47,182 bases of DNA. It comes from a virus. Where the stretch lies: positions 1 through 47,182 of IMG/VR virus record IMGVR_UViG_3300019124_000041; one strand, 5' to 3'. Below the pieces are notes generated by a model, which worked only from the letters and a program-made list of their open reading frames with translations, searched no databases and was not told where the DNA came from. Both the position numbers and the translations under genes were made by a program. Below, in pieces: positions 3,063-47,159 of this stretch (its first letter is position 1; every line of letters begins with the position of its first letter).

Positions 3063-3410
3063 TCACGCCCCAAGCGGCTTCCGGGCTTTCCAGCGGCCGT
3101 AGAGCGTGCCGAGACCGCCGCCGATGCTGCTCAGTGGCGGGCCATAGGTCTCAAGCGACAGCGGCACCCCGTTGGCCAGCATCGTGCCGATGGAGGCCAC
3201 CCCGCCGAGGATCGCGAAGATGGCGCCCCACGTGACGCGGCTGCGATACCATGGCTCGTTGTTCGTCAGATGCTCGATGACCGGCTGCAGCTCCTTGGCG
3301 ACCGTTGCCTTCACCACGGGCTTCTCAGTAGCTTCAACCGGCATGGAGGGCGATTGCACGAGCCGGTCTGCGATGCGGCTGGCGATGTCGAGAACAATCA
3401 GCGGGTTCAT
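3063..3410 (-). CDS. Holin-like phage membrane protein
   Basis: 115 residues. The C-terminal half has the layout R.SRVTWGAIFAILGGVASIG, a short loop, then YGPPLSSIGGGLGTLYGRWKARKP: two hydrophobic stretches with a basic tail. This is typical of small holins encoded next to GH108 endolysins in alphaproteobacterial phages. The start overlaps the endolysin stop by 4 bases (ATGA), which indicates translational coupling. The predicted role is to permeabilise the inner membrane so that the endolysin reaches the wall. The holin assignment rests on topology and context. Confidence 0.7.
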   Translation of the reverse strand: MNPLIVLDIASRIADRLVQSPSMPVEATEKPVVKATVAKELQPVIEHLTNNEPWYRSRVTWGAIFAILGGVASIGTMLANGVPLSLETYGPPLSSIGGGLGTLYGRWKARKPLGA

Positions 3411-4048
3411 GCGAAGATCCTTTTCAGCAGGTCAGCGAGGGCACTAAAAAACCCGCCGTTGCTGGCGGGCTGAGAGACGGGAACCGATGTCGGCTCGATA
3501 TCGGGAGGTGGCGGGAGCGGTCGCGCCGGTGTTGTCGCCGCCATTGCAAGGGCTTCCTTGCGAACGCCCTCAACCCGCATCGTCCAGCCCTTGCCGAACG
3601 CCTTCCACGTCGGGAGACCTTTGAGAAATTCGAGCCGGTCGTCACACATGCGATTGATGACGACAGCAGCGGGCAGATCGCGAGCGGCCTTCAGCGTCAG
3701 AGGGCCGATCACGCCGTCAGTCGTCACGCTGCAGGCCCGCTGGAGCCACTTGATGGCGCGGCCCGGCCCTGAGTTCACGGCAGCATCGAACACGCAATAG
3801 TCCACACCTGCCGGAAGATCGTCGCCCTTCACCTTGTCCCAATACTTCCGGCGATAGATCGGGGCCACGGCTGGCACCGTCAGAGACTTGACCTCTGCCC
3901 TTGTGGCAGGCCTGCCGAGCCAATCCGATAGGGTGCCGATTGTAACCCCTAGGTTCGTAGGTCCGCCCGGGTCGGCTGGGTGATCAACGTAGCCGCCTTC
4001 GTGGCGCAGGACGAGCGAAAGAGCCCGCCCGAATGTCTCGGTGGTCAT
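3407..4048 (-). CDS. Endolysin: GH108 muramidase with C-terminal peptidoglycan-binding domain
   Basis: 213 residues. The N-terminus has the GH108 signature RHEGGYVDHPADPGGPTN, in which Glu17 is the expected catalytic residue. A PG_binding_3-type domain follows (AVNSGPGRAIKWLQR, then DGVIGP). The Pro-rich linker and C-terminal LADLLKRIFA helix may help membrane contact. It cleaves the glycan backbone at lysis. The start at 4048 is preferred over 4063 because GGAG lies 9 bases before it, while the 4063 ATG sits against the T-tract of the upstream terminator. There is no signal peptide, so release would need the holin. Confidence 0.9.
   Translation of the reverse strand: MTTETFGRALSLVLRHEGGYVDHPADPGGPTNLGVTIGTLSDWLGRPATRAEVKSLTVPAVAPIYRRKYWDKVKGDDLPAGVDYCVFDAAVNSGPGRAIKWLQRACSVTTDGVIGPLTLKAARDLPAAVVINRMCDDRLEFLKGLPTWKAFGKGWTMRVEGVRKEALAMAATTPARPLPPPPDIEPTSVPVSQPASNGGFFSALADLLKRIFA
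3446..3469 (-). terminator. Intrinsic-terminator-like hairpin inside the endolysin coding sequence
   Basis: Reading the minus strand, CCCGCC, a 6-base loop, GGCGGG and then six T form a textbook terminator. It lies within codons for the Ser-Asn-Gly-Gly-Phe-Phe stretch, about 13 codons before the endolysin stop. If active, many transcripts would end before the endolysin stop codon and before the downstream holin gene. Confidence 0.55.
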
Positions 4049-4064
4049 GATTGATTGCTCCATG

Positions 4065-4096: not shown

Positions 4097-4438
4097 TCAG
4101 GCTTGCATCCCATAGTACTGTCGGAGCAGCCGACGCACTTCTGTCTTAAGAGCAGGATCTGCCATCAGCTCCTCCCGCAATTTTTCAATCGCGGCTTCTT
4201 CTGCTTCAGTTTGCGGCTCATCCACATACACGAAGCTGAAGAGACTCCCGTCAGGTTGAGGTATGAGTTGCGCGCCGTTCGCGGTCCATTGGTAGATCAC
4301 CCGTTCTGCTCTCATCTGGAGAACTTCTTGGTCCGAGAAGAGCGGAGCGGCGGCCGTTCCAGCAACGTTCGCGCCTACTATTGCGACCGCCGCCCCTTTC
4401 AATAGGGCGCGACGTGTCATAGATTGACCGTGAGCCAC
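4097..4438 (-). CDS. Small protein with a Tat signal peptide
   Basis: 113 residues. A twin-arginine motif (SMTRRALLKG) precedes a hydrophobic stretch and an A-x-A site (GTAAAP), so folded export through Tat is likely. The mature part is about 85 residues, acidic and helical, with no known domain. A GTG start at 4438 is chosen because TAGGAGG lies 5 bases before it; the ATG at 4420 lacks such a site. It sits between the antirepressor and the endolysin, with a strong terminator right after it. A cargo gene expressed in the lysogen is possible. Function unknown. Confidence 0.65.
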   Translation of the reverse strand: MAHGQSMTRRALLKGAAVAIVGANVAGTAAAPLFSDQEVLQMRAERVIYQWTANGAQLIPQPDGSLFSFVYVDEPQTEAEEAAIEKLREELMADPALKTEVRRLLRQYYGMQA

Positions 4439-4517: not shown

Positions 4518-5306
4518 CTAGGCTGCGATAGCCGCCGGCGGGAACAGCTTCGCCAATGCCGTCATACCCTTTGGCGTGATCCGCACCTGCTCCACGATCT
4601 TCTCAGTACCGTCGGCCCGGAGCACAGTGGTCACTTTGTGCTCAAGAAGACCTGCCGCGACTTTGGACTGGTAGCCCAGGTCGTGAGCCGCTCCCATGCG
4701 GCGGTAGATCCAGCCATGCGAACGCAAATAGGCGAACAGATCCTTGGGCCGGACTTGAAGGGCCTTAGCCGCGTCAGTGATGCAGAGCGAGCCTTCGGCG
4801 GTCGAGAGCCGGTCCAGAGCCTCGGCCTTCGGGGCAAGGACTGCAATCACCTCATCCTTCTCCGCAACCTGGTTCTGCAGGTGCTGGAAGGCTCCCAGAA
4901 GAACCACGGGATCGGAGTAGTCGATCACCGGAGCCGCTTTTGCCTTTCGTTCGCACTCGATGAAGTACTGGCGGGCCTGCTTGCCCTTCTCGTTCCGCTC
5001 GACCATCGCCAGTTCCTTGGCCATGTCGATAGTGATGGCGTACTCCTTACGCGGCCGTCCCCCTTTTTCGGAGGTTTCCGAAAAACCCACAAAGTCCACG
5101 TTTTCAACGAAACTGTACTGCTGAACGCGATCCTGGAACCACGTCGTGAAGTGATCGCGGTTCTCAAGGAAGGCGTGGAGGTCACGTGCGTTGACGGTCT
5201 GCACCGCCTCCCCTCCCACGGACCCCTCCTGCACCACAGGAAAGGTCGAAGAGTTCATGGCGTCTTGGACGGCAGCCATAACCGTATTATATGCTGTGTC
5301 AGTCAT
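4518..5306 (-). CDS. Phage antirepressor (AntA/AntB domain plus C-terminal KilAC/ANT domain)
   Basis: 262 residues. Residues about 35-115 carry the AntA/AntB-type motif (VNARDLHAFLE, FTTWFQDRV, Y.ITIDMAKELAMVERN.KGKQAR.YFIECE). A KilAC-like domain follows, with a DAAKALQVRPKDLFAYLRSHGWIYRR segment and a C-terminal ITPKG motif. Proteins of this type bind and inactivate a CI-type repressor, causing induction. The start at 5306 has AAGGAG 6 bases upstream. It lies downstream of an Arc-like gene on the same strand, as arc-ant do in P22. The likely target is the CI at 36.5 kb (inference). Confidence 0.85.
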   Translation of the reverse strand: MTDTAYNTVMAAVQDAMNSSTFPVVQEGSVGGEAVQTVNARDLHAFLENRDHFTTWFQDRVQQYSFVENVDFVGFSETSEKGGRPRKEYAITIDMAKELAMVERNEKGKQARQYFIECERKAKAAPVIDYSDPVVLLGAFQHLQNQVAEKDEVIAVLAPKAEALDRLSTAEGSLCITDAAKALQVRPKDLFAYLRSHGWIYRRMGAAHDLGYQSKVAAGLLEHKVTTVLRADGTEKIVEQVRITPKGMTALAKLFPPAAIAA

Positions 5307-5309
5307 CTT

Positions 5310-5357
5310 AGGCTCCTTCTTAGCCTTTGGTGATGTTCAGCCTGCGCTAACAGGCTG
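5310..5357 (-). promoter_or_regulatory. Hairpins in the arc-ant junction, one around the antirepressor ribosome-binding site
   Basis: On the minus strand CAGCCTG, a 6-base loop and CAGGCTG (5357-5338) cover the Arc stop codon. Next, AGGCT, AAGAAGG and AGCCT (5326-5310) form a small hairpin whose loop holds most of the AAGGAG site of the antirepressor. Neither is followed by a T-tract. They could limit antirepressor translation or be the target of an antisense RNA, as with P22 sar. This function is inferred only. Confidence 0.45.
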
Positions 5358-5561
5358 GTTCTGCGACGATGACGGGGCTCGGTCGCCAAACTTCACCCCG
5401 TCATCGTTATCTCCCTCACGCAGAGCGCGTTCGAGAAGAAATACTATCTCTGAGTTCATTGACCTCAGATTTTGGGCCGCCCTGTCTTTGAGGGCTGCTC
5501 TCATCCCATCAGGCAGTCTTAATGGGAATTGGTCCGCTCCCCTTGGAGAGGGTCGCGCCAT
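5337..5561 (-). CDS. Arc-like ribbon-helix-helix repressor
   Basis: 74 residues from the ATG at 5561, which has AAAGGAGG upstream. The Arc/MetJ fold motif is clear: DQFPLRLPDGMRAALKDRA (beta strand then helix A), then RSMNSEIVFLLERAL (helix B). The acidic C-terminal tail is probably disordered. In P22, Arc shuts down the arc-ant operon. It is the first gene of the leftward operon and its promoter must lie among the 15-bp operators just upstream. Its N-terminal half closely resembles the divergent gene at 5677, so the pair looks like an old duplication. Confidence 0.85.
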   Translation of the reverse strand: MARPSPRGADQFPLRLPDGMRAALKDRAAQNLRSMNSEIVFLLERALREGDNDDGVKFGDRAPSSSQNQPVSAG

Positions 5562-5577
5562 TTTTGCCTCCTTTCGT

Positions 5578-5641
5578 AAATCACGGTGATTTACATTACC
5601 GTGATTTGATTGACGGTCAAGCAGAAAAATCACAGTGATAT
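5578..5641. promoter_or_regulatory. Divergent control region with three copies of a 15-bp palindromic operator
   Basis: AAATCACGGTGATTT at 5578-5592 is a perfect 7-1-7 palindrome. ACATTACCGTGATTT at 5593-5607 and AAATCACAGTGATAT at 5627-5641 differ from it at three and two positions. They fill the gap between the Arc-like gene (leftward) and the Mnt-like gene (rightward) and are natural targets for ribbon-helix-helix dimers. Two direct copies of GATATTTGAAG (5647-5657, 5659-5669) follow, just before the rightward start codon. Confidence 0.8.
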
Positions 5642-5676
5642 GGGATGATATTTGAAGCGATATTTGAAGGTTCGAT

Positions 5677-6225
5677 ATGTCCGACAGAAAACCCGGCCGG
5701 GGCTCAGATCAGTTCCCGCTCCGTTTGCCAGATGGAATGCGCGAGCGGATTAAGGTCGCTGCCGAAGCTAATGGCCGAAGCATGAACGCTGAGATCATCG
5801 CGCGGATTGAAGCGACTCTCCAGGTCACCGAGAAGAATATCGCCGTTAAGGACGTTCTCCCGAGCTTGTTCTCGATTTATGAGGGCTTGGAGGAAGGCAT
5901 CGATGCAATCTTGGACCGGCTGGATCGCTTGGAGAGCCAAATCGCGGGAACCGCACCCAAGCCCGGCAAGGAGGATCTCAAGCCGTCCGGCACCGAAAGT
6001 CCGACACCTTCACCGCCCTGGGATGATGAGCATGTGGCTCCCCTGCTCGACAAGTGGATTTCTCGTCAGCCAGACCCAAAGCCCACAAGGGATGAGGCAT
6101 TAACTAGCATCCTCATGCAAGGCCTCGTGAAGCCTGAAAAGAATTCCAATGATGATGTACTAAGCCAAGGATCTTCATCGAAAGGACTTTCACCGACACG
6201 CCCTAAGCGACAGATTAAACTGTGA
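5677..6225 (+). CDS. Mnt/Arc-like ribbon-helix-helix regulator with long C-terminal extension
   Basis: 182 residues. The N-terminal 50 carry an Arc-type ribbon-helix-helix (DQFPLRLPDGMRERIKVAA, then RSMNAEIIARIEATL). A helical segment follows (about 65-90, ILDRLDRLESQ), possibly a tetramerisation coil as in Mnt, then a Pro-rich low-complexity linker and a C-terminal region of unknown fold. It is transcribed away from the Arc-like/antirepressor operon, as mnt is in P22, so it may be the lysogen-expressed repressor of the antirepressor. The length is about twice that of P22 Mnt; the extra C-terminal part has no recognised domain. Confidence 0.8.
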   Translation: MSDRKPGRGSDQFPLRLPDGMRERIKVAAEANGRSMNAEIIARIEATLQVTEKNIAVKDVLPSLFSIYEGLEEGIDAILDRLDRLESQIAGTAPKPGKEDLKPSGTESPTPSPPWDDEHVAPLLDKWISRQPDPKPTRDEALTSILMQGLVKPEKNSNDDVLSQGSSSKGLSPTRPKRQIKL

Positions 6226-6496: not shown

Positions 6497-6577
6497 GCTC
6501 AACGCCTTTAAGACTTATCCTAAACCAAAATCAGGAAACTATTGCAGACCCAGGATAGCAAAGGGTATGCCGCGTGC

Positions 6578-7735
6578 ATGCTGCCCCGTGTTCACAAGAC
6601 TCAAGCCGTAACACAAGTTGCTGCCCTTGCATTGGCTGTAACCATTGTTTTTGCCGGAGTTTTCTGGCAACGGATCGCTTTGAATGCTCGAAGTGACCTG
6701 CATATCCATATCGACTATGCAAAACAAATCTCTGCCCTTCAAGACATCACCTCACCACATTTCCTCTTCCAGCTGATAATTAAGGCGGTACATACTGCTA
6801 GTGGCATGAGCTATGAGTTGGCCGCCGCACTTTCACTTGGTGGCTGCTATGGGTTGATGGCCGTTCTGATTGTCTCTGAGATCCGTCGACGCGCCCCTTA
6901 CATTGAGACCGCGTCAGCGTTTTGTGCCTCGATCGCCATCCTTGTTGCGTCGCACATTTTCATTCTGACAGCGCATGTTCCCAACCTGTACTACGGATAC
7001 CTTGTTCCAACTACCTATCACAATCCAACTCAGCAGTTGAACAAGCTGTTTACCCTCGCAATCTGGTTCATGTACTGCAGCCTGTTTGTGTCAGGGCAAG
7101 ACCAAAGTTACCGCACTCCGAGACTATTTGCTCTAGGAGCATTATGCGTCGCTTCGGCCATCGCTAAGCCCTCTTTTTTGATTGCATTTCTTCCAGTTAG
7201 TGGCGTGATGGCCGGATTCGACTTCCTGCGCGGTCGATGGAAACGTGTATCGGAATTCGTCCTCGCGATCATGCTTCCGTCGGCTGTAATAATGATCTGG
7301 CAGTTTTGGCTCACCTACGGAAAAGGGGCTAAAAGCGGGGTCGTATTTGCTCCATTTGCCATCTTCCCGGATCCAACCCAGTATCTCACCACTCTCCCCC
7401 TGGCTCTACTCTTTCCTCTCTTGGCGGCCGCCCTGTTGCATCGAGCAGCGAAGAGGACACCCGAATTTGTGATGGCTTGGGCAATCTTGGTTATCGGGCT
7501 CCTGTACACTCTGCTCCTAGCCGAGTCAGGGCCGCGTCAAATGCAGGGTAACTTCGCATGGACGGCCCAGACCGGAGCCTTCCTAGTGTATGTAGAAGCC
7601 TTGTTGCTGTTGCTGAAGGCAAACCCCTCGAAGGTGACCTCACGGGTGCTGATTGCGACCTTGACACTCCATGTGGCCTGCGGGGTCGTTTATGCGATTG
7701 TGAATGCAACGATCCCCGCAGTGCAATGGCTCTAA
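6578..7735 (+). CDS. Polytopic membrane protein, GT-C glycosyltransferase-like (candidate lysogenic conversion gene)
   Basis: 385 residues from the ATG at 6578. About ten hydrophobic segments alternate with short loops. The first loop after TM1 contains SDLHIHIDYAKQ, an acidic and His-rich motif in the place where GT-C glycosyltransferases keep their catalytic Asp; a later loop has an HNPTQQLNKLF motif. Serotype-converting phages carry similar large membrane enzymes that add sugars to O-antigen. No gtrA or gtrB-like partner is present here, so function is an inference. Base composition is less GC-rich than that of neighbours and it lies outside the phage core modules, consistent with acquired cargo. 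Confidence 0.6.
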   Translation: MLPRVHKTQAVTQVAALALAVTIVFAGVFWQRIALNARSDLHIHIDYAKQISALQDITSPHFLFQLIIKAVHTASGMSYELAAALSLGGCYGLMAVLIVSEIRRRAPYIETASAFCASIAILVASHIFILTAHVPNLYYGYLVPTTYHNPTQQLNKLFTLAIWFMYCSLFVSGQDQSYRTPRLFALGALCVASAIAKPSFLIAFLPVSGVMAGFDFLRGRWKRVSEFVLAIMLPSAVIMIWQFWLTYGKGAKSGVVFAPFAIFPDPTQYLTTLPLALLFPLLAAALLHRAAKRTPEFVMAWAILVIGLLYTLLLAESGPRQMQGNFAWTAQTGAFLVYVEALLLLLKANPSKVTSRVLIATLTLHVACGVVYAIVNATIPAVQWL

Positions 7736-36157: not shown

Positions 36158-36384
36158 GCGGCCTCCGAAAAAGGTGGGAGGAAGTCTTCCGCTGTGAGCT
36201 TGAGCCCGTGTTTTTTGGCATAGGCCAAGAGCTTCGGATGATGCCGCTGAGGAATGAGGCCCCCAGTACCGCCGCGAGCCCTTGGGTGCTGCCAGCGATA
36301 TGGAGCTGTGTAAGAGGTGCCTGTGATCTCGCTGACCACAGCCTCGCCACCTAGGAGTTTGATGATGCTGCAGGCTGGTTCCAT
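36154..36384 (-). CDS. Cro-like/YdaS-type HTH regulator
   Basis: 76 residues. It begins MEPACSIIKLLGGEAVVSEITGTSYTAPYRWQ, a YdaS/Cro-type HTH; the C-terminus is a helix (PKLLAYAKKHGLKL). It is divergent from the CI gene with 91 bases between, the standard lysis/lysogeny switch. It opens the long leftward early operon. Confidence 0.85.
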   Translation of the reverse strand: MEPACSIIKLLGGEAVVSEITGTSYTAPYRWQHPRARGGTGGLIPQRHHPKLLAYAKKHGLKLTAEDFLPPFSEAA

Positions 36385-36390
36385 GCCCGC

Positions 36391-36434
36391 ATATTCTGAT
36401 TTTCCGAAATTCGGGTCAAGCGAAATTTCGGATT
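36391..36434. promoter_or_regulatory. CI/Cro operator-promoter region
   Basis: TTCTGATTTTCCGAAAT (36394-36410) is followed by the palindromic GCGAAATTTCGG (36421-36432). On the minus strand a -35 TTGACC (36419-36414) faces the cro start. The same 17-bp sequence recurs at 38405, so it is a good candidate for the CI operator. Confidence 0.75.
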
Positions 36435-36475
36435 TTCATAAAAGACAATCTTTCCGGTTTGCAGAAAATAGCGGG

Positions 36476-37216
36476 ATGGATGAGATCGAGTGGATACGCG
36501 AAGGCCTTAAGAAGCCGGGGAAGACCAAGTCCGGCTTAGCGCAAGCCCTTGGGCGAGCGCCGTCAGCTGTCTCTGCCCTTCTAAAAGGTGAGAGGGTACT
36601 AAAGGCCCGAGAGATCCCAAAAATCGAGCAATATCTAGAGGTTAAGGCCCCTAAAGAGCTAATCTCGGAAGCTGTTTACTCGGTGCTCCGGTCGAGGAAT
36701 CCTGATGAGGCCCCCGCTCGTGCCCGCGGGGATGATCTCGAAGAACCCAATGTAGACCTATCGAAAGCGGAGCCCGTCCCAGCTAACCAACGATTCGGCG
36801 GCCCTCGAGATGTTCCGGTCTATGGCACGGCGGTTGGTGGAGGAGACGAGGACGGCGACTTCAGGTTCAACGGTGAGCAGATCGACATGGCGCCTCGGCC
36901 GCCTGGCATTGCTAATCGAAAAGACGTGTTCTGCCTCTATGTCGAGAACGACAGCATGTTCCCTAAATTCGAGCCAGGGGAACGGCTCTACGTGGACCCG
37001 CACCGGAAGCCACGCCAAGGCGAATATGTCGTGGTAGAGCTTCATGGAGAGAGCGAGGGGGAGCCTGGGAAGGGCTATATCAAGCGCCTGGTGAAGCAGA
37101 CCCCTACTCGGCTTGTGGTCTCGCAGTTCAACCCACCGAAGGAACTTGAGTTTGAGGCGGACCGTGTAAAGCGCCTGCTTCGGGTCATCCCTACAGACGA
37201 GTTGCTGGGGGTCTAG
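36476..37216 (+). CDS. CI-like repressor with S24 (LexA-type) domain
   Basis: 246 residues from the ATG at 36476; the reading to 36317 runs into cro and is rejected. N-terminal HTH at about 16-37 (KTKSGLAQALGRAPSAVSALLKG). C-terminal S24 domain with VYVENDSMFP-type motif (Ser160-Met161) and catalytic Lys203 (YIKR). The region where LexA-type proteins have Ala-Gly reads YGTAVGGGDEDG, so cleavage may differ. It keeps lytic promoters off in the lysogen. The ribosome-binding site is weak (GCGGG next to ATG). Confidence 0.92.
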   Translation: MDEIEWIREGLKKPGKTKSGLAQALGRAPSAVSALLKGERVLKAREIPKIEQYLEVKAPKELISEAVYSVLRSRNPDEAPARARGDDLEEPNVDLSKAEPVPANQRFGGPRDVPVYGTAVGGGDEDGDFRFNGEQIDMAPRPPGIANRKDVFCLYVENDSMFPKFEPGERLYVDPHRKPRQGEYVVVELHGESEGEPGKGYIKRLVKQTPTRLVVSQFNPPKELEFEADRVKRLLRVIPTDELLGV

Positions 37217-45736: not shown

Positions 45737-45985
45737 ATGGGACAGGTGCAGCACACACGATTGCTGACCCGCGAGGAAGCCGCGGCGCACTGCCATCTAA
45801 GCCCCTCCGGGTTCTCCCGATGGGTAGCCCAAGGGAGGCTCCCCAAGCCCCTGCCTGGCACTCGGCGGTGGGACGTAAGGGCTATCGACCGAGCCCTAGA
45901 CAGGCTTTCCGGCTTATCCGACTCTGAGGCAGGACAAAGCGCCTATGAGCGGTGGAGGGCCAATCGGAATGCGCGTCATGCTTAA
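45737..45985 (+). CDS. Excisionase-like HTH protein (MerR/AlpA type)
   Basis: 82 residues. LLTREEAAAHCHLSPSGFSRWVAQGRLPKPLPGTRRWDVRAIDRALD is a winged MerR-type HTH seen in phage excisionases. It overlaps the integrase start by 17 bases, the usual xis-int arrangement. It would bend att DNA and favour excision. Confidence 0.8.
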   Translation: MGQVQHTRLLTREEAAAHCHLSPSGFSRWVAQGRLPKPLPGTRRWDVRAIDRALDRLSGLSDSEAGQSAYERWRANRNARHA

Positions 45986-47006
45986 GGGAGTGCATCGGGT
46001 GCCGCGGCGGCTCGCGGATGGCACCCGGTCAATCTACTACTATGCCTGGAGAGGCGGCCCACGGCTCCGCGGAGAGCCGGGGAGCCCGGAGTTCATTGAG
46101 AGCTATCAGGAAGCCCACAGGGGCCGGAAGGCCGCTTCCGATGGCACCCTGCACCAGCTCGTGACGGAGTTCCGCGGCAGCAGCGAATACAAGTCGCTGT
46201 CCGATAGTTCCAAGAGAGCCTACCAGACCTATTTGAACCTGATTGATGAAGAGTTCGGAGACTTGCCGCTTGAGGCGCTGACGGCCCCGGAGATCCGCGG
46301 GGATTTCAAAGCGTGGCGCGATGGCATGGCGGATACGCCGCGTAAGGCCGACTACGCCTGGACGGTTCTTGCGCGCGTTCTCTCCGTAGCGAAAGACCGC
46401 GGCAGGATTACCGTCAATCCCTGCGAGCGCGGCGGCAGGCTCTACAAAGCCGAGCGGGCGGAGAAGCTATGGACCGCGGATCATATCTCACGATTTATGG
46501 ACACCGCCTCTGAGGAGCTGCAATTGGCGCTCGTGCTGGCGCTCTGGACAGGACAGCGGCAAGGCGACCTCTTGCGCCTCCCCTGGTCCGCCTATGACGG
46601 CAAGACGATCAAGCTGAAGCAGTCGAAAACGGGGCGACGTGTCGTTATCCCGGTTGGGCCTACACTGCGAGATCATCTCGCAGCGGTGAAGAGGAGAGCC
46701 GTTACGATCCTGACCAACACCGAGGGGAACTCGTGGACGTCCGATGGTTTCCGGGCGTCATGGGGCAAGGCGTGTGAGCGCGCCGGGATAGACGATGTGA
46801 CATTCCACGACATCCGCGGGTCCGCCGTCACGCGGCTGGCTCTTGCTGGCGCCAGCGTCCCGGAGATCGCGTCGCTTACAGGGCACTCGCTGAAGGACGC
46901 GGAAGACATCCTGCAGACGCACTATCTGGGCCGCGATGTGAAGCTCGCGGAGGCTGCAATGCGCAAGAGAGAACGGAAGGAAAGGCGAACGAAGTCTGTA
47001 AAATGA
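45969..47006 (+). CDS. int: Tyrosine-recombinase integrase
   Basis: 345 residues; the ATG at 45969 is chosen because GGAGGG lies 9 bases before it, while 45945 is also open. The N-terminal arm-binding part (GTRSIYYYAWRGGPRLRG) is short; a core-binding helix region follows (about 58-160). The catalytic set is complete: Arg197 (TGQRQGD), Lys220 (KQSKTGR), His280 and Arg283 (FHDIRGS), His306 (TGHS) and Tyr319 (THYLGRD). It inserts the phage at the neighbouring tRNA-Lys. Confidence 0.95.
   Translation: MRVMLKGVHRVPRRLADGTRSIYYYAWRGGPRLRGEPGSPEFIESYQEAHRGRKAASDGTLHQLVTEFRGSSEYKSLSDSSKRAYQTYLNLIDEEFGDLPLEALTAPEIRGDFKAWRDGMADTPRKADYAWTVLARVLSVAKDRGRITVNPCERGGRLYKAERAEKLWTADHISRFMDTASEELQLALVLALWTGQRQGDLLRLPWSAYDGKTIKLKQSKTGRRVVIPVGPTLRDHLAAVKRRAVTILTNTEGNSWTSDGFRASWGKACERAGIDDVTFHDIRGSAVTRLALAGASVPEIASLTGHSLKDAEDILQTHYLGRDVKLAEAAMRKRERKERRTKSVK

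Positions 47007-47083: not shown

Positions 47084-47159
<76 letters not shown>

Follow-up and report, generated by a model that had tools for sequence, protein, structure and literature searches.

The immI region of phage P22 (NC_002371) is one classic regulatory circuit, in which a long and a short ribbon-helix-helix (RHH) protein, Mnt and Arc, are encoded divergently. The long protein silences ant in the lysogen, arc-ant is expressed on entry of the phage and the short protein gives feedback (PMC11016777, PMC7549136), with Oarc and Omnt as separate sites. The short gene heads the antirepressor operon, the divergent gap spans about 100 bp with overlapping promoters and a TTGAC -35 element, and the cassette is located in the late region. 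Within the P22-like phages, immI has been described along with variable relatives termed 'ant moron' (PMC2629481, PMC8022706), and we found no description in the literature of immI as a general module beyond such phages.

Two further systems are relevant for comparison. In the DNA complex of AmrZ, a cellular regulator of Pseudomonas aeruginosa (3qoq) that has no antirepressor, three beta-strand residues, Lys18, Val20 and Arg22, recognise GGC half-sites that are separated by five bases, GGC-N5-GCC (PMC3325190). In the prophage-induction modules consisting of a transcription factor and a small protein (Silpe et al. 2023, PMC10432266), a divergent regulator lies beside a gene whose product inactivates a CI-type repressor; that regulator activates the small protein, whereas in the locus studied here two RHH proteins would act as repressors, and their target would be an antirepressor of full size.

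That locus is found in the virus record IMGVR_UViG_3300019124_000041, which was analyzed at its full length of 47,182 bases and is here called the window. All of the traits of P22 immI with regards to gene order, gap length, overlapping promoters, -35 element and location in the late region recur in it, in line with the P22-like arrangement proposed in a preliminary description of this DNA. The operator plan, the reading heads and the antirepressor family do not.

Gene content and setting of the cassette

The late genes of the window run leftward and encode the large terminase, portal, head protease, major head protein, tail sheath, tape measure, and baseplate hub and wedge, followed by a gene with a terminal DUF4376 domain and then by the endolysin gene and small genes. 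Being flanked by the endolysin gene (3407-4063) and tail-end genes, with baseplate genes from 9228, the cassette lies inside the late/structural region. A temperate phage with a contractile tail, carrying the cassette as an insertion in its late region, is together with the whole immI-type explanation the reading that we consider likely. A candidate CI-like repressor gene at 36317-37216 encodes an S24 domain, with Ser and Lys at plausible dyad positions as judged by eye. At the far end of the window, a tRNA gene (47087-47159, minus strand) immediately follows the integrase gene (45945-47006), which is probably the region of the attachment site.

The antirepressor gene (ant, 4518-5306, minus strand) encodes 262 residues with an N-terminal AntA/AntB domain (AntA, PF08346, E 1.4e-28) and a C-terminal ANT/KilAC domain (PF03374, E 9e-29), and the protein also matched the anti-repressor family PHROG 63 (E 3e-55). 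The AntA type of this gene, as first described, was thus found again in the Pfam search, but the likeness to P22 does not extend to the Ant family itself, for P22 Ant belongs to the P22_AR family and neither P22_AR_N nor P22_AR_C was found in the AntA-KilAC protein of the window. A fold search of the PDB with its predicted model (pTM 0.44) gave no match at E <= 0.001.

Directly upstream, in the same orientation and separated from ant by 30 bp, lies the short RHH gene of the Arc slot (5337-5561, minus strand; 74 residues; PF03869, E 7e-13), the ATG of which at 5561 is preceded by the Shine-Dalgarno sequence AAAGGAGG. AmrZ and Mnt are its closest solved relatives. An inverted repeat with perfect arms of 12 bp (5366-5377 / 5396-5407) around a loop of 18 nt is located at the 3' end of this gene, shortly before the junction with ant. 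In P22, the sar antisense RNA is encoded between arc and ant; no sar- or c4-type antisense RNA was seen in the window, where Rfam matched only the tRNA and a promoter scan of the 30-bp junction was empty, which does not prove its absence.

The long RHH gene of the Mnt slot (5677-6225, plus strand; 182 residues; PF03869, E 4e-16) runs in the opposite direction. Its product matched AmrZ (E 3e-8) and Mnt (E 5e-5) with phmmer, and AmrZ is the closest solved sequence relative of both RHH proteins. AlphaFold, used for the monomer only, predicted a long helix at residues 57-90 past the RHH domain (pLDDT block means 77-85), a possible counterpart of the C-terminal helical segment through which Mnt tetramerises. 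In long proteins of other loci (L028, L034, L177, L232 and others) the sequence past the RHH domain varies highly between loci, and these C-terminal parts could be different sensing or oligomerisation modules. The reading head of an RHH protein, which we define as the outward beta-strand residues, i.e. positions 1, 3 and 5 of Q-F-P-L-R, is Q-P-R in both the short (QFPLR) and the long protein of the window, compared to Q-N-R and H-N-R in P22. The genes, their directions and the 115-bp gap were as first described.

Two neighbouring genes deserve mention. Next downstream of ant is a gene for a small protein with a Tat-type signal (4097-4420, minus strand; MTRRALLKG; MTRRALLKGAAVAIVGANVAG). A regular expression detected Tat-like open reading frames behind the short gene in 18 of 126 loci, about 15 of them convincing, and behind the long gene in 2 of 126; the expression missed the window's own gene, which was found separately. 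Small Tat-type proteins of this sort come after the short gene in about 15-19 loci, L317 and L401 being clear homologues. The protein is probably a passenger of the operon, and a role in superinfection exclusion as for P22 sieA would be only a guess by analogy. On the other side, a 397-residue open reading frame (6542-7735, plus strand) that separates the long RHH gene from the tail-end genes has the look of a membrane protein, gave no matches in Pfam or PHROG, and is possibly a lysogenic-conversion gene.

Three candidate operators in the divergent gap and their recurrence

The 115-bp control region between the two RHH genes (5562-5676) contains three near-copies of the odd palindrome AAATCAC-N-GTGATTT, which were absent from the preliminary description. 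Given on the arc-ward strand, these candidate operators are D (5578-5592, AAATCAC-C-GTGATTT), S (5593-5607, AAATCAC-G-GTAATGT) and U (5627-5641, ATATCAC-T-GTGATTT). A candidate -35 element of the arc-ant promoter, TTGACC, is found at 5615-5620 on the minus strand together with a weak candidate -10, TAATGT, at 5593-5598. Counted from the first base of this -35 along the arc-ant strand, the three centres fall at -14, +20 and +35, which places U upstream of the -35, S over the promoter spacer and -10, and D near the +1 of the promoter. A strict sigma-70 scan of the gap returned no promoter, because the -10 is weak. When the whole window was scanned with up to two mismatches, all three matches were in the gap, with no further copies at, for example, the CI gene, and no second repeated site accompanied the three-copy palindrome within the gap. 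Ahead of the long RHH gene, in its leader, the direct repeat GATATTTGAAG is present twice, 12 bp apart (5647-5669).

For comparison with other phages, 418 sequences were gathered from relatives of Ant in viral contigs and bacterial genomes, from matches to the long protein and to three alignments built on long RHH domains, and from a small number of named phages. These yielded 159 distinct divergent RHH pairs, nearly all of one short (mostly 45-80 residues) and one longer protein, and P22 was recovered by the same pipeline (Mnt 83 and Arc 47 residues as called there). The loci are similarity-chosen samples, in which starts and heads were assigned by script. In 108 cases the open reading frame behind the short gene was scanned with Pfam, which gave 26 with KilAC, 15 Rha, 13 AntA, 10 Bro-N, 6 KilA-N, 5 P22_AR_N and 3 ORF6N; a frame that was recognised at all thus mostly had an antirepressor domain. 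One frame may count for two domains, and the AntA count is inflated by loci retrieved with the Ant query, a bias that hardly touches the Rha, Bro-N and other cases. This variety of antirepressors beside the pair argues for the RHH pair as a control cartridge of exchangeable use, and recurrence of the same trio in many phages lifts the trio of the window above chance. In a minority of pairs (e.g. L168-L174), the short gene heads an operon on the integrase side without a recognised antirepressor, and the RHH pairs of L168 and L170-L174 may serve their phages as the primary switch. One contig, L277, has two distinct short/long pairs within 8 kb, with heads P-G-R and K-A-R and different operators. 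RHH matches in Pseudomonas phi3, phage Solano and Rhizobium PPF1 were excluded, as no annotated trio was visible there.

Contractile tails are no exception among the carriers. Such a cassette had been thought unexpected in a phage with Mu-type tail genes, but the trio is present among the tail genes of two phages that have sheath genes, Paracoccus phage vB_PyeM_Pyei1 (MK291445, gp53-55) and Edwardsiella phage GF-2, and it was also found near tail genes in Klebsiella ST11-VIM1phi8.1, Salmonella SPN3UB and Acinetobacter TCUAN1. In Pyei1, which has a contractile tail, the trio is likewise followed by a Tat-type protein; it differs from the window in having an antirepressor annotated as Rha plus KilAC, heads Q-M-R and Q-V-R, and operators of TAGCGA type. 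The closest likeness was seen in Brevundimonas nasdae prophages (L028 and L115) and the IMG/VR contig L208, with the long head Q-P-R and AAATCAC operators at -14, +20 and +35, and in L028 also an AntA-KilAC antirepressor and a Tat-type protein, although the short heads of these loci are V-S-R and K-P-R. A pattern scan for the exact gap type of the window had a Brevundimonas-type contig, already in the set, as its sole match.

The operator model of three 7+1+7 palindromes with one common half-site, scored against dinucleotide shuffles, reached p<=0.05 in 86% of gaps, and 95 of 157 gaps exceeded the 99th percentile of random windows from the same loci. The gap of the window itself scored 36.0, compared to 27.2 +/- 1.4 for random windows of the same loci, with the best of 1256 controls equally at 36.0. 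Among 126 non-redundant gaps, TTGAC was directed to the short gene in 96 and oppositely in 16, and the upstream, spacer and downstream layout of sites as in the window was found in 73 of 96 scorable gaps. The P22 gap scored 27.5, i.e. at chance level, as expected from its single Arc site and single, separate Mnt site as opposed to three copies of one palindrome. Since the antirepressor family and operator plan thus differ, and no sar RNA was seen, the locus does not descend from P22 immI in every part; as it would function in the manner of immI, it is best named an immI-type cassette.

Reading heads and operators in 126 loci

The operators covary with the reading heads. Over 126 non-redundant loci, the mean operator distance was 0.33 between loci with the same long head and 0.61 between those with different ones, a difference reached in none of 2000 permutations (p<1/2000) treating loci as exchangeable. 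Where both domains were less than 50% identical outside the head, the distances were 0.37 and 0.63, so that common descent alone does not explain the association, although relatedness is not fully removed in this way.

This covariation could in large part be read as a code. Gln at head position 1 went with A at base -5 in 40 of 51 loci, Lys with G in 37 of 49 (37 of 40 once the xTALR class is set aside) and Pro with T in 7 of 7. Position 3 was associated with bases -6 to -4, and the invariant Arg had C at -3 as its partner in 103 of 126. In leave-one-out prediction all four core bases were correct for 68 of 109 loci, compared to 2% for random loci with another head; the phase of the half-site is ambiguous in some classes (Q-V-R). 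AmrZ supports the code independently, for its half-site is likewise read by three beta-strand residues, its spacing is that of the operator model used here, and the K-V-R loci of our set, sharing its head, have the operator TGGC-N5-GCCA. With regards to named phages added after the analysis, the Q-H-R head of phiAX1 agreed and the Q-K-R head of TCUAN1 largely did, while two K-N-R phages were mutually inconsistent in operator. Neither the three-operator layout nor a code between RHH heads and operators was reported in the literature that we searched, which is weak evidence as many subscription papers were outside its reach.

The operator follows the head of the long protein far better than that of the short one, being at a distance of 0.34 between loci with the same long but different short heads and at 0.55, close to the background of 0.61, in the reverse case. 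The short protein may hence act elsewhere or mainly by feedback. The extreme form of this division, in which the three operators are the domain of the long protein only, the short one acts elsewhere or in weak feedback and the shared Q-P-R head is a coincidence, would agree with the separate Oarc and Omnt sites of P22, and we regard it as quite possible, if somewhat on the doubtful side. Three observations are less easily reconciled with it. The two heads are equal within a locus in 28 of 126 cases, whereas 4.2 would be expected and 5000 shuffles gave no more than 12; the short head retains a small association with the operator where long heads differ (p 0.004); and the gap of the window offers the short protein no second repeated site. 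As heads are unequal in about three quarters of the loci, P22 included, common sites are not the rule, but with Q-P-R in both proteins of the window competition for common sites is plausible there.

The matching heads could also be the trace of a recent tandem duplication, with the copies kept as redundant repressors or heterodimers. The preliminary description had indeed spoken of duplicated repressors, and the common stretches DQFPLRLPDGMR and RSMN-x-EI that it pointed to are real, as is an identity of 52% between the two RHH domains of the window outside their identical heads. In a tree of 252 RHH domains, however, the short/long label needs 14 changes vs about 84 for shuffled labels, and the short protein of the window is nearest to other shorts and its long protein to other longs, and this very improbable origin was rejected on these grounds. 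Judged by this tree, shorts and longs are old, separate lineages. Same-head pairs are also not closer overall than different-head pairs (mean percentile 0.63 vs 0.57), so the equal heads do not stem from recent duplication; a matching head has rather been retained or acquired anew, in agreement with a need, in some phages, for the two proteins to recognise common sites.

A toxin-antitoxin or plasmid-partition module, the former raised already in the preliminary description, in which the RHH genes would be antitoxins or ParG-like, was dropped as highly improbable: RHH domains are frequent in antitoxins and two matched PHROG families (795 and 2685) are labelled 'partition protein ATPase', but a toxin or ParA partner is absent, the linked gene in the window, as in many further loci, being that of an antirepressor, PADLOC gave no convincing match (best E 0.003, short partial matches), and that label, found also on P22 mnt in NC_002371, looks like a misannotation propagated among Arc/Mnt-type RHH proteins.

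A proposed immI-type switch

In our preferred reading, which we think has much in its favour, the cassette would be a secondary immunity region of immI type, with the long RHH protein silencing arc-ant and the short one competing with it at three sites. Starting from the gene content, the three operators and their layout, the covariation and the recurrence, all taken from sequence, we infer binding, direction of regulation, competition and the target of Ant. In a lysogen, following the P22 mechanism, the long protein bound to the three palindromes would shut the arc-ant promoter, and no antirepressor would be made. In a newly infected cell this promoter would fire immediately, and Ant would bind and disable the candidate CI-type repressor encoded at 36.3 kb, or the repressor of a resident or superinfecting phage. 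The short protein, made from the same arc-ant transcript, would then close the promoter again and, via operator U, could limit the long gene too. With their identical Q-P-R heads, the two proteins would compete at the same three sites in the manner of lambda CI and Cro, which would bear out the competition between them suggested at the outset.

Taken together, the observation in the preliminary description is real and its interpretation partly supported. Whether immI-type cassettes are a widespread class of switch, built from two ancient RHH lineages acting in CI/Cro fashion on three copies of one operator next to an exchangeable antirepressor, with a variation that holds a largely readable code (Gln to A, Lys to G, Arg to C, the third residue setting the middle bases), is in our estimate evenly poised. 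The control cartridge serves antirepressors of six or more kinds, and its conserved three-operator promoter is absent from P22. The covariation of head and operator in more than 100 natural pairs makes DNA recognition by RHH proteins directly testable, and operators may become predictable for unstudied proteins related to Arc, Mnt and AmrZ.
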